From Modestobacter excelsi (GTDB taxonomy: Bacteria; Actinomycetota; Actinomycetes; Mycobacteriales; Geodermatophilaceae): 64,000 bases of DNA. This document shows positions 45,377 through 58,429 of the stretch, piece by piece. A model generated the notes under the pieces. That model did not search any database and was not told where the DNA came from. It worked only from the letters and a program-made list of their open reading frames with translations. The stretch's first letter is position 1, and every line of letters begins with the position of its first letter. The DNA is taken from the NCBI RefSeq assembly GCF_005930495.1, contig NZ_SJEX01000007.1:1-64000 (forward strand). The letters are read 5' to 3'. Made by a program: the position numbers and the translations under genes.

Positions 45377-46777
45377 ATGACCGCGAAGAACCTGCAGGAG
45401 CTCCTCGACCAGACCGGTGACACCGTCGGGCTGCTGCGGAACTCCCAGATCGGCACCTACATCTACCCGGTGGTGCCCTCGGAGTTCACCAACTGGCGGC
45501 GGGAGCAGAAGGCGTGGCGGGAGACCGCGGTGCTCTTCGACCAGTCGCACCACATGTACAACACGTGGATCTCCGGCCCGGACGCGCTGAAGCTCATCTC
45601 CGACACCGGCATCAACAGCGTGGCCAACTTCCCGGTGAACATGGCCAAGCAGTTCGTCCCGGTCTCCCCCGAGGGCGGGGTCATCGGTGACGGGATCCTC
45701 TTCCACCTCGCCGAGGAGGAGTACGTCTTCGTCGGCCGCGCACCGGTGGCCAACTGGCTGGAGTTCCAGGGGTCCAAGGACTACGACGTCGAGGTGCGCA
45801 ACGACCCGCGCTCGTCGTCACGGCCGTACGGCAAGGCCGTGAGCCGCGACGTCTGGCGGTTCCAGATCCAGGGTCCCAACGCCTGGCCGGTGATCGAGAA
45901 GCTCCACGGAGGCGACCTGGAGCAGCTGAAGTTCTTCCGCATGTCGGAGATGAACATCGGTGGCGAGAAGGTCCGCACCCTGCGGCACGGCATGGCCGGC
46001 GCCCCGGGCCTGGAGATCTGGGGCCCCTACGAGTCCTACGAGAAGGTCCGCGAGACCATCCTCGAGGCGGGTGCGGAGTTCGGGCTCGAGCCGTGCGGTT
46101 CGCGTGCTTACTCCTCCAACACCCTCGAGTCGGGCTGGATCCCCTCCCCGCTGCCGGCGATCTACACCGCGGACGAGCTGCGGCCCTACCGTGAGTGGCT
46201 CCCGGCCAACGGTTACGAGGCGACCAACGCGCTGGCGGGCAGCTTCGTCTCCGAGCGGATCGAGGACTACTACCTCAACCCGTGGGAGCTCGGTTACGGA
46301 TCGTTCGTGAAGTTCGACCACGACTTCATCGGCCGGGACGCGCTGGAGGCCATCGACCCGGCCACGCAGCGGCGCAAGGTGACGCTGGCCTGGAACGACG
46401 AGGACATGACGAAGCTGTTCGGCGGGATCGTCGCCCCGGCACCGGGGTACCAGGTCTTCGACCTGCCGAACGCCAACTACGGGTCGTCGAACTTCGACTC
46501 GGTGGTGGACGCCGACGGCACGGTGGTGGGCGCGTCGCTGTTCACCGGCTACAGCGCCAACGAGCGCAAGGGGCTCTCCCTGGCCACGGTCGACCCCAAC
46601 GTGCCGATCGGCGCCGAGGTCCGGGTCGTCTGGGGCGAGCCGGACGGCGGCAGCGGGAAGTCGAACGTCGAGCCGCACGAGCAGTTCACCGTCCGGGCCG
46701 TGGTGAGCCCGGCTCCTTACGCGGAGACCGCCCGCGCGGAGTACCACGGCGGGTGGCGCAGCGCAGCGACCGCCTGA
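45377..46777 (+). CDS. Tetrahydrofolate-dependent aromatic O-demethylase, LigM/DesA type
   Basis: A 466-residue GcvT-fold protein that resembles vanillate/3-O-methylgallate demethylase LigM and syringate demethylase DesA, which pass the methoxy carbon to THF. Tyr30 (in GTYIYPVVP), the SHHM histidines (58-59), Arg121 (FVGRAP) and Tyr245 (RAYSSN) lie within one or two positions of the LigM active-site Tyr31, His60, Arg122 and Tyr247 as I recall them. I chose ATG 45377, which has GAGGA 9 bases upstream; ATG 45371 is too close. MetF, FolD and PurU genes nearby strongly support THF as acceptor. Confidence 0.88.
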
Positions 46778-46854
46778 GTTTCCGGGGGCCGGGTGGTGGG
46801 ACCTCCCGCCGCCCGGCCCCTGCTCGCCCCGAGACGAGAGGACCACCCCGCACC

Positions 46855-48213
46855 ATGTCGTCCGAGAGCCTGGCCTCAGCCCTCGCCCGCGTCGGGAGCG
46901 CGGTGGAGCTCCTCCGGAACCTGGCCTTCCCGCCGAGCACCTTCCCGGTGCAGCCGGAGTTCACCAACTGGCGCACCGAGTCGCGGTCCTGGCTGGAGAC
47001 CTGCGCCCTGCTCGACCAGTCGCACCACATGACCGACCTGTTCGTCGAGGGCCCCGATGCGCTGCGGCTGTTCAGCGATCTGGCCGTCAACAGCTTCGCG
47101 GCCTTCGGCCCGGGCAAGGCCAAGCAGTTCGTCGCGGTGGCGCCGGACGGCCACCTCATCGGTGACGCGATCCTGTTCCACCTCGAGGAGGACTCCTTCG
47201 ACCTGGTGGGCCACCCCATGGTGATCGACTGGGTGACGTTCCACCTCGAGCGCGGCGGCTACCAGGCCACCGCGGTGCGCGACGACAACTCGATCGTGCG
47301 GCAGTCGGGGCCGCCGAAGCTGTACCGGTACGAGCTGCAGGGCCCGACCGCCGCCGCGATCGTCGAGCAGGCGACCGGCGCGCCGGCGCCCGAGGTGAAG
47401 TTCTTCAACATGACGGCGTTCACCATCGCCGGCAAGCAGGTGCGCGGCCTGCGGCACGGCATGGCCGGCCAGCCGGGCTTCGAGCTGTTCGGCCCGTGGG
47501 CGGACGGCGAGGCGGTGCTGACCGCACTCCTCGAGGCCGGCGCGGACCACGGCCTCGTGCGGGTCGGCGCCAAGGGCTACTCGACGACCAACCTCGGGTC
47601 CGGCTGGGTGCCGGCGCCGCTGCCGGCCATCTTCGGCGACGACCCGCTGCTGGCCGAGTACCGCGAGTGGCTGCCGCTGTCGAAGGTCGGCTCCATCGGC
47701 GGCAGCCTCGACTCCGCCGACGTCGCCGACTGGTACCTCACCCCCCACGACATCGGCTACGGCAAGACGGTCAAGTTCGACCACGACTTCGTCGGCCGGG
47801 AAGCCCTGGAGCGGATGGCGCAGACCGCACCGCCGCGGACCAAGGTCACCCTCGTGTGGAACGCCGACGACGTCACCGGCGCGGTCGGCTCGTCCTACCG
47901 GCCGGGCCCGGGCGCGAAGTACATCGAGATGCCGAAGGCCCGCTACGCCACCCACCACGAGGACCAGGTCCTCGAGGACGGGAAGCCCGTCGGCATCTCG
48001 CTGGACTGCGGCTACCTGGCCAGCGAGCGGGAGATGGTCTCCCTGGCGACCATCGACACCTCGCTGTCCGAGCCGGGCACCGAGGTGACCGTCGTGTGGG
48101 GCGAGCGTCCGGTCTCGGCGAAGCCGGCGGTCGAGGAGCACGAGCAGGTGGAGATCCGCGCCGTCGTCGCCCCGTGCCCGTACGACGCCCGCGACACCTA
48201 CCGGGCCCGCTGA
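46855..48213 (+). CDS. Second tetrahydrofolate-dependent O-demethylase-like protein (LigM/DesA paralogue)
   Basis: A 452-residue GcvT-fold paralogue of the preceding gene, 77 bases downstream on the same strand. It shares EFTNWR, DQSHHM, LRHGMAG and the GYSTTN tyrosine. Two residues tied to substrate carboxylate binding in LigM differ: the Tyr at position 30 is Phe, and the Arg at 121 of the first protein is His120 here. A different methoxy substrate is therefore likely. A bidirectional hairpin follows its stop. Confidence 0.87.
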   Translation: MSSESLASALARVGSAVELLRNLAFPPSTFPVQPEFTNWRTESRSWLETCALLDQSHHMTDLFVEGPDALRLFSDLAVNSFAAFGPGKAKQFVAVAPDGHLIGDAILFHLEEDSFDLVGHPMVIDWVTFHLERGGYQATAVRDDNSIVRQSGPPKLYRYELQGPTAAAIVEQATGAPAPEVKFFNMTAFTIAGKQVRGLRHGMAGQPGFELFGPWADGEAVLTALLEAGADHGLVRVGAKGYSTTNLGSGWVPAPLPAIFGDDPLLAEYREWLPLSKVGSIGGSLDSADVADWYLTPHDIGYGKTVKFDHDFVGREALERMAQTAPPRTKVTLVWNADDVTGAVGSSYRPGPGAKYIEMPKARYATHHEDQVLEDGKPVGISLDCGYLASEREMVSLATIDTSLSEPGTEVTVVWGERPVSAKPAVEEHEQVEIRAVVAPCPYDARDTYRAR

Positions 48214-57541: not shown

Positions 57542-57556
57542 CCCCGGTCCGTCAGC

Positions 57557-58429
57557 TCACTCGAAGACGACGGTGCGGTTGCCGTGGATGATGACGCGGT
57601 TCTCGGTGTGCCAGCGGACCGCGTGCGCGAGGGCGCGGGTCTCGGCCTCCCGGCCGCGCGCGGCCAGCTGCTCCGGGCTCGACGAGTGGTCGACGCGCAG
57701 CATCTCCTGCTCGATGATCGGGCCCTCGTCGAGGTCCGCGGTGACGTAGTGCGCGGTCGCCCCGATGAACTTCACGCCCCGGGCATGCGCCTGGTGGTAC
57801 GGGCGGGCGCCCTTGAAGCTCGGCAGCATCGAGTGGTGGATGTTGATCGCCCGTCCCCCCAGCTGCCGGCACAGGTCGTCGGACAGGATCTGCATGTACC
57901 GGGCCAGGACCACCAGCTCGACCCGCTCCTCGCGGACGATGTCCAGCAGCGCCGCCTCGGCCTCCGCCTTGGTCTCGCGGGTCACCGGGATGTGGTGGAA
58001 CGGGACCCCGTAGAAGTCGGCGGTGTCCTTCAGCGTCGGGTGGTTGGACACGATGGCGACGACGTCGAGGTTCAGCTCGCCCACCGAGTTGCGGAAGAGC
58101 AGGTCGTTGAGGCAGTGCGCGTACTGGCTGACCATGATGAGCACGCGCTGACGTTCCGAGGCGTCGGCCAGTCGCCAGCTCATCCCGAAGCGCTGGGCCG
58201 TCTCCTCGAAGCTGCGGCGCAGCGCGGGGAGGTCCAGCGGTGCCCCGTCGACGTGCTTGAACTCCACGCGCATGTAGAACATGCCGCTGGAGAGGCTGTC
58301 GAACTGGTGGCTCTCCACGATCGTGCACTGCTCCTGCACGAGCAGTCCGGACACCGCGTGCACGATGCCTGGCGCATCCTGGCAGGACAGCACCAGGATG
58401 CCGTGCTGACCGTCGGCGGGCCGCGTCAT
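57557..58429 (-). CDS. purU: Formyltetrahydrofolate deformylase
   Basis: A 290-residue PurU: N-terminal ACT domain (VLSCQDAPGIVHAVSGLL, about 10-90) and a formyltransferase-fold domain with the NIHHSMLPSFKGARPYHQAH motif and catalytic Asp in TADLDEGPII. It hydrolyses 10-formyl-THF to formate and free THF. This closes the cycle that starts with methyl transfer by the O-demethylases. It is transcribed toward the metF-folD operon. Confidence 0.96.
   Translation of the reverse strand: MTRPADGQHGILVLSCQDAPGIVHAVSGLLVQEQCTIVESHQFDSLSSGMFYMRVEFKHVDGAPLDLPALRRSFEETAQRFGMSWRLADASERQRVLIMVSQYAHCLNDLLFRNSVGELNLDVVAIVSNHPTLKDTADFYGVPFHHIPVTRETKAEAEAALLDIVREERVELVVLARYMQILSDDLCRQLGGRAINIHHSMLPSFKGARPYHQAHARGVKFIGATAHYVTADLDEGPIIEQEMLRVDHSSSPEQLAARGREAETRALAHAVRWHTENRVIIHGNRTVVFE

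Follow-up and report, generated by a model that had tools for sequence, protein, structure and literature searches.

A putative PurU-closed tetrahydrofolate cycle for aromatic O-demethylation in a Modestobacter gene cluster

Tetrahydrofolate (THF)-dependent demethylation of lignin-derived aromatics has been worked out in sphingomonads. In Sphingobium SYK-6, a ligM-metF-ligH operon and its pathway have been described (PMC6888825); the SYK-6 methylenetetrahydrofolate reductase (MTHFR), S6MTHFR, is reported to oxidize 5-methyl-THF, and many bacteria hold LigM-MTHFR gene sets (PMC12585457). Here, we analyze a 64,000-nt stretch of the Modestobacter excelsi genome (the window; contig NZ_SJEX01000007.1, positions 1 to 64,000) that carries two genes for LigM/DesA-type O-demethylases together with folate genes, including purU for a formyl-THF deformylase.

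Other described systems share parts of this chemistry. In actinobacteria, THF-dependent O-demethylation was predicted for a Solirubrobacteraceae metagenome-assembled genome (MAG), MB2.64, and a Micromonosporaceae MAG, and a DesA-like clade that includes actinobacterial as well as other aminomethyltransferases has been noted (PMC9296663). The THF-dependent BrdA is found in Rhodococcus and Arthrobacter (PMC5547118), and THF-dependent demethylases occur in other bacteria (PMC8027834). During chloromethane use (cmu) by Methylobacterium extorquens CM4, MetF, FolD and PurU turn methyl-THF to formate (PMC3621897), and actinobacterial sarcosine clusters have the composition glyA-soxBDAG-sdaA-purU (PMC3534580). 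Related dicamba demethylases are limited through 5-methyl-THF inhibition, and PurU, MetF and FolD do not occur in the available part of that paper (PMC9404685); the only relevant follow-up to the dicamba lead, among the matches listed (best 12 of 45), is a FolD-PurU-formate dehydrogenase combination in Aminobacter (PMC8235418).

Demethylase and folate genes of the cluster

The source genome has 5.26 Mb in 178 contigs, where the window is C146:1-64000, and the nearest named LigM locus is that of Modestobacter muralis (93% identity). An earlier note on this DNA had put two LigM/DesA-type O-demethylase genes together with metF, folD, a cyclodeaminase gene and purU in 13 kb; each of these is confirmed at its position and is listed here along with a PabB-PabC fusion that the note lacked:

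45377..46777, + strand: LigM1, vanillate/3-O-methylgallate O-demethylase (NCBIfam LigM equivalog 878.9 bits, cut-off 580)
46855..48213, + strand: LigM2, relative of THF-dependent demethylases in a separate clade (DesA 552 bits, cut-off 800; LigM 477 bits, cut-off 580)
53350..54213, + strand: MetF-like, non-canonical MTHFR (Pfam MTHFR 44 bits; AGGAGG ahead of the ATG)
54257..55117, + strand: FolD, with motifs YIRNK (YxxxK), QLPTP (QLPxP) and KDVDG
55117..56925, + strand: PabB-PabC fusion, p-aminobenzoate synthesis (TIGR00553 347.5 bits, cut-off 328.4; PMKGT and HKTT motifs)
56912..57541, + strand: FTCD_C/FchA-like protein, candidate methenyl-THF cyclohydrolase (Pfam FTCD_C 137.3 bits)
57557..58429, - strand: PurU, formyl-THF deformylase (TIGR00655 333.5 bits, cut-off 286; PDB 3lou 316.5 bits)

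The LigM genes are separated by 77 bp. The folate row begins with the MetF-like gene and, after a 43-bp gap, continues with folD; in this operon, the PabB-PabC gene, sitting between folD and the cyclodeaminase gene, overlaps the folD stop with its start and is itself overlapped at its stop by the FTCD_C gene. PurU is convergent to the metF operon, facing the FTCD_C gene.

On the best-supported reading, the locus probably serves the catabolism of methoxylated aromatic acids through a folate cycle that PurU closes, with gallate ring opening and PabB-PabC supply. In the proposed pathway, LigM1 would transfer the O-methyl group of vanillate or 3-O-methylgallate to THF, and LigM2 would perform the same transfer from a different methoxyphenol, for which syringate or a related compound is the likeliest candidate. 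Next, the non-canonical MTHFR would convert 5-methyl-THF to methylene-THF, FolD, perhaps aided by the FchA-like protein, would carry methylene-THF to 10-formyl-THF, and PurU would hydrolyze 10-formyl-THF to formate and THF, which would therefore be regenerated without a formyl-THF synthetase (FTHFS). As THF accepts the methyl groups stoichiometrically, PabB-PabC would serve to enlarge its pool. LigAB would open gallate to 4-oxalomesaconate, from which LigU, LigJ and LigK would produce pyruvate and oxaloacetate; protocatechuate formed from vanillate would probably pass to PcaGH encoded elsewhere. The genes may act together under joint regulation.

The individual proteins are consistent with these assignments to different degrees. 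LigM1 lies above the curated LigM equivalog cut-off, and its alignment with the solved LigM (PDB 5tl4) reaches 711.8 bits and spans residues 2-465 of 466. The MetF-like protein has both sequence features of an SYK-6-type MTHFR: it fails the canonical MetF model TIGR00676 (54 bits, cut-off 294), and among solved proteins it is closest to 7xg9 (E 3e-34), which we take to be S6MTHFR itself. It is presumed to oxidize 5-methyl-THF. FolD looks bifunctional by itself, and the three motifs listed for it are presumably functional. The FTCD_C protein scores below the NCBIfam FchA cut-off (93.6 vs 275 bits), has FchA 7vg4 as its nearest solved protein (E 1e-14) and is a probable methenyl-THF cyclohydrolase. 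PurU has a formyl transferase domain (135 bits) and an ACT domain slightly below cut-off (26.2, cut-off 27), as well as the motifs NIHHS, GATAH and DLDEGPII, which presumably have functional roles too.

Further copies of these folate genes exist in the genome: a canonical MetF on contig C5 (316.5 bits), a second full-length FolD on contig C141 and a second PurU at C146:68233-69060, 10 kb from the first. The last belongs to a glycine betaine/sarcosine cluster just past the window (C146:64474-80970), together with a serine dehydratase, a BCCT transporter, a GbcA-like Rieske protein (232 bits, cut-off 670), a sarcosine oxidase alpha subunit (1157 bits, cut-off 1164) and another GcvT-domain oxidase.

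A search of the genome for FTHFS of the LigH type gave 0 matches, and PurU is the plausible exit because no such enzyme was found. In silico, this agrees with the earlier note's proposal that PurU, and not the LigH of SYK-6, closes the loop. FTHFS is likewise absent in 10 of the 16 genomes that have LigM-like genes. Alternatively, as suggested for SYK-6, the methyl groups could mainly supply the one-carbon needs of biosynthesis (methionine, purines, thymidylate), with PurU only balancing the pool; in SYK-6, LigM and MTHFR are described as replacing a missing glycine cleavage system (PMC12585457), and biosynthesis draws on methylene- and formyl-THF anyway. However, this genome retains a GcvT of the glycine cleavage system (297 bits to gcvT, cut-off 236); because of it and the further MetF and FolD copies, one-carbon supply is not lacking. 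The PurU in the cluster would drain one-carbon units, and the two methyl groups of each syringate probably exceed the need, so we consider a mainly biosynthetic function unlikely.

Conservation of the association

A class sample of 394 genomes contains 10 with a LigM over cut-off. Within 20 kb of LigM, 9 of these 10 have a MetF-like gene, 8 have PurU and none has FTHFS. The two LigM genomes without a nearby PurU are G315, where PurU is on other contigs, and G131, where LigM is on an 8.8-kb contig without a MetF-like gene. With 25 PurU matches above the cut-off across 16 genomes (~107 Mb), chance predicts ~0.01 per 41-kb neighbourhood; the proximity of LigM and PurU exceeds chance.

A second, named set comprises 79 loci, all actinobacterial by title, which were drawn from the best 80 of 567 relatives and are biased to close kin; some records, among them those of G390, G315 and G138, occur in both samples. 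Within 10 kb of LigM, these loci contain MetF-like genes (46), PurU (30), LigB (21), FolD (14), PabB (10) and FTHFS (1); across the 60 loci that span 21.3 kb or more, the respective counts are 38, 23, 18, 13, 10 and 0. A MetF-like gene is also present in 29 of the 30 PurU loci, and in 20 of the 29 no more than 123 bp separate MetF from PurU.

The position of PurU varies between relatives. Six related genomes (M. muralis, B. litoris, G. aquaeductus, B. haudaquaticus, Blastococcus TF02A-35 and G390, B. xanthinilyticus) carry a PurU that shares 84-90% identity with that of the window but is found at the opposite end of the cluster, where it follows the LigJ gene at a distance of 0.8-4.1 kb. In Klenkia and G. 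sabuli, PurU (75 and 69%) is found among folate and LigM genes; the remaining PurUs compared are 48-57% identical and outside the LigJ-side arrangement. Beyond actinobacteria, metF-purU-folD adjoins a protein over the DesA cut-off on the Croceicoccus and Sphingobium TomTYG64 plasmids (Sphingomonadales), the former also with a folB-like gene (56.5 bits, cut-off 72), while Rhizobium pRL9 has metF-ligM and no PurU annotated within 10 kb, in a gene table that is incomplete. The arrangement is thus not a one-off of the window genome, in view of the 30 of 79 actinobacterial loci and its occurrence on Agrobacterium and Sphingomonadales plasmids.

A housekeeping folate operon (metF-folD-pabBC-fchA, with purU) could have come to lie beside an aromatic cluster by chance. 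The folate genes do make up a separate operon whose genes overlap, and PurU is convergent to it; nevertheless, the genome has further MetF, FolD and PabB copies elsewhere, the MTHFR in the row is not of the canonical type, and the association recurs across families and phyla. The copies elsewhere and the recurrence argue against a chance neighbourhood of this kind, which we reject as highly improbable.

The PabB genes were compared in a tree of 27 of 31 rows without an outgroup, from which M. muralis, B. haudaquaticus, Prauserella and the window genome's TrpE were dropped for short matches. A clade of 12 PabBs (100/100) is apart from 11 vertical (housekeeping) PabBs (100/100) and includes nine from clusters (window, G. 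aquaeductus, G390, TF02A-35, G. sabuli, R. opacus, G152, G111 and G324); the PabBs near LigM in Kocuria and Phycicoccus fall outside it. In the window genome, the other PabB, on contig C49, reaches 264 bits, under the cut-off of 328, and a weaker match to the PabB model on contig C12 is taken for TrpE. The R. opacus cluster pairs its PabB with FolC (286 bits, cut-off 163). By analogy to folC2 of the chloromethane plasmid, PabB-PabC, and likewise PabB with FolC, may raise the THF pool. The M. muralis genome (G394) has a further PabB over cut-off at C66:8414-9232, beyond its cluster copy on C25.

Several observations weigh against a PurU-closed cycle with its own folate supply. PurU is on the opposite strand and outside the metF operon, and the second PurU, 10 kb away in the sarcosine/glycine betaine cluster, could share its task. 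The FchA-like protein is far below the FchA cut-off, and FolD seems bifunctional anyway. PurU is missing within 10 kb in 49 of the 79 loci, of which 19 are shorter than 21.3 kb, and these loci are the nearest relatives only. Finally, three of the 12 clade PabBs (Klenkia C10, G111 C2 and G324 C236) have no LigM gene in their 19-kb stretches, so PabB of this clade does not mark LigM clusters exclusively. The earlier proposal of THF-dependent demethylation with MetF-FolD-PurU recycling is still supported in silico, by the lack of FTHFS, the extra folate-gene copies and the presence of PurU in the same aromatic cluster in the six relatives.

The LigM2 clade and the ring-cleavage branch

The pocket of LigM2, which the earlier note had not covered, is distinct. 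Residues were tabulated for 139 proteins at the positions aligned with Y30, R121, Y245 and N248 of LigM1, omitting two LigM1 matches of at most 1200 bases. Y-R-Y-N occurs in 99 of the 139, including the LigM1s and two DesAs over cut-off. The LigM2 clade provides another 37 (the window, R. opacus and 35 in named loci, which are all those called LigM2), with F at position 30, H (29) or W (8) at position 121, Y at 245 and A, S or T at 248; the last three proteins have FRYS, YRYV and VIYA. In a midpoint-rooted tree of 54 proteins, the 37 LigM2 proteins fall together (96/93), and support of 100/99 sets off the Y-R group. The window's LigM2 has F, H and T at the DesA-type positions Y30, R121 and N248, and a plain DesA is ruled out by these residues and by its score (552 vs 800).

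Through the 5tl4 alignment, with an inferred tag offset, R121 of LigM1 would match Arg122 of LigM. We take Arg122 to bind the substrate and Tyr247 of LigM to be catalytic. A methyl-transferring tyrosine is mentioned in PMC9296663, in a section that gives no residue number. LigM2 probably has a different substrate or binding mode from LigM1, because its pocket residues differ from those of both LigM and DesA; the substrate could still be syringate. A further-reaching reading has two parts: that LigM2, seen here in actinobacteria, is a separate class of THF-dependent O-demethylases that has lost the LigM/DesA pocket arginine and whose substrate is neither vanillate nor syringate nor 3-O-methylgallate, and that such operons build their own cofactor, with PabB/PabC (or PabB and FolC) co-regulated with demethylation and a THF pool growing with the methyl load. 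We hold this reading tentatively, as a possibility, and rate it lower because PMC9296663 already notes a DesA-like actinobacterial clade.

Two further paralogs of the LigM/DesA family, neither of which reaches the curated cut-offs, are encoded at C146:82024-83214 and C94:30431-31741. The former has no tyrosine at position 245 in a rough pairwise alignment of a fragment; the latter is the VIYA protein, with V and I at positions 30 and 121.

Beyond the genes of the earlier account, the window has LigA, LigB, an isomerase-like protein, a hydrolase, a two-component pair, PabB-PabC, an ABC transporter and LigU/LigK/LigJ. The genes for ring cleavage and the 4-oxalomesaconate branch are:

48287..49144, - strand: LigB, class III extradiol dioxygenase beta subunit (PRK13366 369.7 bits, cut-off 317; Pfam LigB 230 bits)
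49137..49502, - strand: LigA, dioxygenase alpha subunit (TIGR02792 118.2 bits, cut-off 108.6; start codon at 49502)
49550..49828, - strand: muconolactone-isomerase-family protein (Pfam MIase 109 bits; TIGR03221 80.9, under the cut-off of 130.6)
49830..50567, - strand: alpha/beta hydrolase, a frequent LigAB companion (open reading frame listed to 50687; Pfam Abhydrolase_6 71 bits)
35716..36417, - strand: LigK, 4-carboxy-4-hydroxy-2-oxoadipate aldolase (PRK09262 310.7 bits, cut-off 179; TIGR02798 281.8, under the cut-off of 304.5)
34593..35678, - strand: LigU, 4-oxalomesaconate tautomerase (open reading frame listed to 35936, probable start 35678; OMA_tautomer 498.8 bits, cut-off 440)
31805..32821, - strand: LigJ/FldW-like 4-oxalomesaconate hydratase, Amidohydro_2 (Pfam 194.5 bits; no NCBIfam match)

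The LigJ-like protein shares 71% identity with FldW, annotated as a 4-oxalomesaconate hydratase in Sphingobium sp. TomTYG64, and 65% with an amidohydrolase of the Pseudarthrobacter Sphe3 ligK-ligAB cluster; queries from the Sphe3 plasmid match here at 65% (LigJ), 55% (LigK) and 52% (LigB). The dioxygenase, tautomerase, hydratase and aldolase genes for a putative branch from gallate through 4-oxalomesaconate are all present. A genome-wide search with the Sphe3 LigC found no ortholog in 4 of 4 genomes (best match in the window genome, 34% over 146 aa), which disfavours protocatechuate meta-cleavage as the ring route; LigI queries gave nothing either on the contig stretch covered or on 18 kb of C94, a search that was not genome-wide. 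Gallate as the ring-cleavage substrate is what these data point to, because LigC is missing while the 4-oxalomesaconate genes are present. Contig C101 carries a PcaH over cut-off, and the weaker match adjoining it is probably PcaG.

LigAB might instead cleave most 3-O-methylgallate directly to the methyl ester CHMOD, with the isomerase-like protein and the hydrolase leading on to 4-oxalomesaconate and LigM1 serving vanillate. These two genes follow LigAB in the window and accompany it in many relatives: the isomerase-family protein is a frequent LigAB companion, present in 19 of the 79 loci, and the hydrolase is 68% identical to its Rhodococcus opacus plasmid copy. DesC/DesD in Novosphingobium provide a precedent (PMC6888825). 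However, the folate loop would be bypassed for one of syringate's two methyl groups; direct cleavage is possible but less likely than demethylation ahead of gallate cleavage.

Within the LigK-LigU-LigJ operon, two other genes encode a catechol 2,3-dioxygenase-like protein (33603-34559; 299 bits, cut-off 320), kept there in relatives, and a DUF1932/6PGDH-like dehydrogenase (32818-33606), which has a 37% relative near LigAB in Sphingobium TomTYG64 and could be a stand-in for LigC.

The remaining features of the neighbourhood are:

40040..44802, - strand: branched-chain-amino-acid-type ABC transporter (binding protein, two permeases, two ATPases; profile matches)
50731..51393, - strand: NarL-type response regulator (NCBIfam matches, every one under cut-off)
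51390..53195, - strand: PAS-GAF sensor histidine kinase (Pfam HisKA_3, HATPase, GAF, PAS)

The regulator and the kinase complete the - strand block that follows LigM2 with LigB, LigA, the isomerase-like protein and the hydrolase. The transporter lies upstream of LigM1, with the LigK, LigU, catechol-2,3-dioxygenase-like, DUF1932 and LigJ-like genes (31805-36417) further up on the same strand; it is presumed, from position alone, to take up aromatic acids. The G+C fraction at 40001-48000 (transporter and LigM genes) is 0.70-0.71, vs 0.73-0.76 in the remaining 4-kb steps of the window. Near PurU, at 58618-63677, a CocE/NonD hydrolase, an aldehyde dehydrogenase and an alcohol dehydrogenase are encoded; the aldehyde dehydrogenase has 73-74% homologs adjoining the cluster in genomes G390 and G102 and perhaps acts on vanillin or syringaldehyde.

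Comparison with described systems

Judged by sequence alone, the cluster extends THF-dependent lignin demethylation to many soil actinobacteria, in one case plasmid-borne, with an exit that would run via hydrolysis to formate instead of formyl-THF synthetase. If PabB-PabC is co-induced, the catabolic operon would supply its own cofactor, which would be useful for O-demethylation engineering, and the LigM2 clade would be a source of uncharacterized demethylases with a different pocket. The earlier note's suggestion of an undescribed actinobacterial variant holds in part. No description of a LigM-PurU cluster in an actinobacterium was found among the matches listed, which cover few subscription journals, and in the literature searched a single paper mentions both ligM and purU, in separate contexts; on the other hand, MetF-FolD-PurU methyl disposal and actinobacterial THF-dependent demethylases are already in print.

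Like SYK-6, the cluster has LigM, an MTHFR near 7xg9 (presumably of SYK-6 origin), LigAB and the 4-oxalomesaconate branch. Unlike SYK-6, it has PurU in place of LigH/FTHFS, for which the genome gave no match; folD, fchA-like and pabBC genes within the cluster, as well as the LigM2 clade; a two-component pair where SYK-6 has the MarR-type DesR; and neither a LigC ortholog in the genome nor a LigI on the contig stretch searched (not sought genome-wide). The MAGs predicted to perform THF-dependent O-demethylation likewise have a DesA-like or LigM-type enzyme in an actinobacterial background, MB2.64 also with metF, but MB2.64 is reported with ligH and not PurU (PMC9296663).

The MetF-FolD-PurU disposal resembles that of the CM4 cmu system, whose plasmid carries a redundant folate-synthesis gene, folC2; in contrast, CM4 uses chloromethane, the corrinoid methyltransferases CmuA/CmuB and folC2 instead of pabBC (PMC3621897). 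In the sarcosine clusters, PurU also accompanies a THF-loading GcvT-domain enzyme (PMC3534580), with another substrate and other enzymes; one such cluster adjoins in the window genome.

The closest match in content is the Rhodococcus opacus plasmid pRop44186_a (NZ_CP082159.1), which shares LigM1 (76%), LigM2 (65%), MetF, FolD, PurU, PabB, LigAB, the isomerase, the hydrolase, the two-component pair and LigK; it differs by an extra FolC and PIG-L protein, a PabB without fused PabC, its plasmid location and a rearranged order. This plasmid, which carries most of the cluster, is typed mobilizable and has two transposase genes less than 9 kb from LigM1. The Agrobacterium plasmid pAt (NZ_CP042276.1) has ligM (66%), metF and purU directly in a row, and differs in having no folD, pabBC or LigAB annotated in its 21-kb stretch, where the gene table is incomplete. 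Overall, the chemistry is known, and this gene combination is a little-described version of it, whose least expected parts are the pocket of the LigM2 clade and the folate-supply genes within the cluster (PabB-PabC here; PabB and FolC in the Rhodococcus plasmid).

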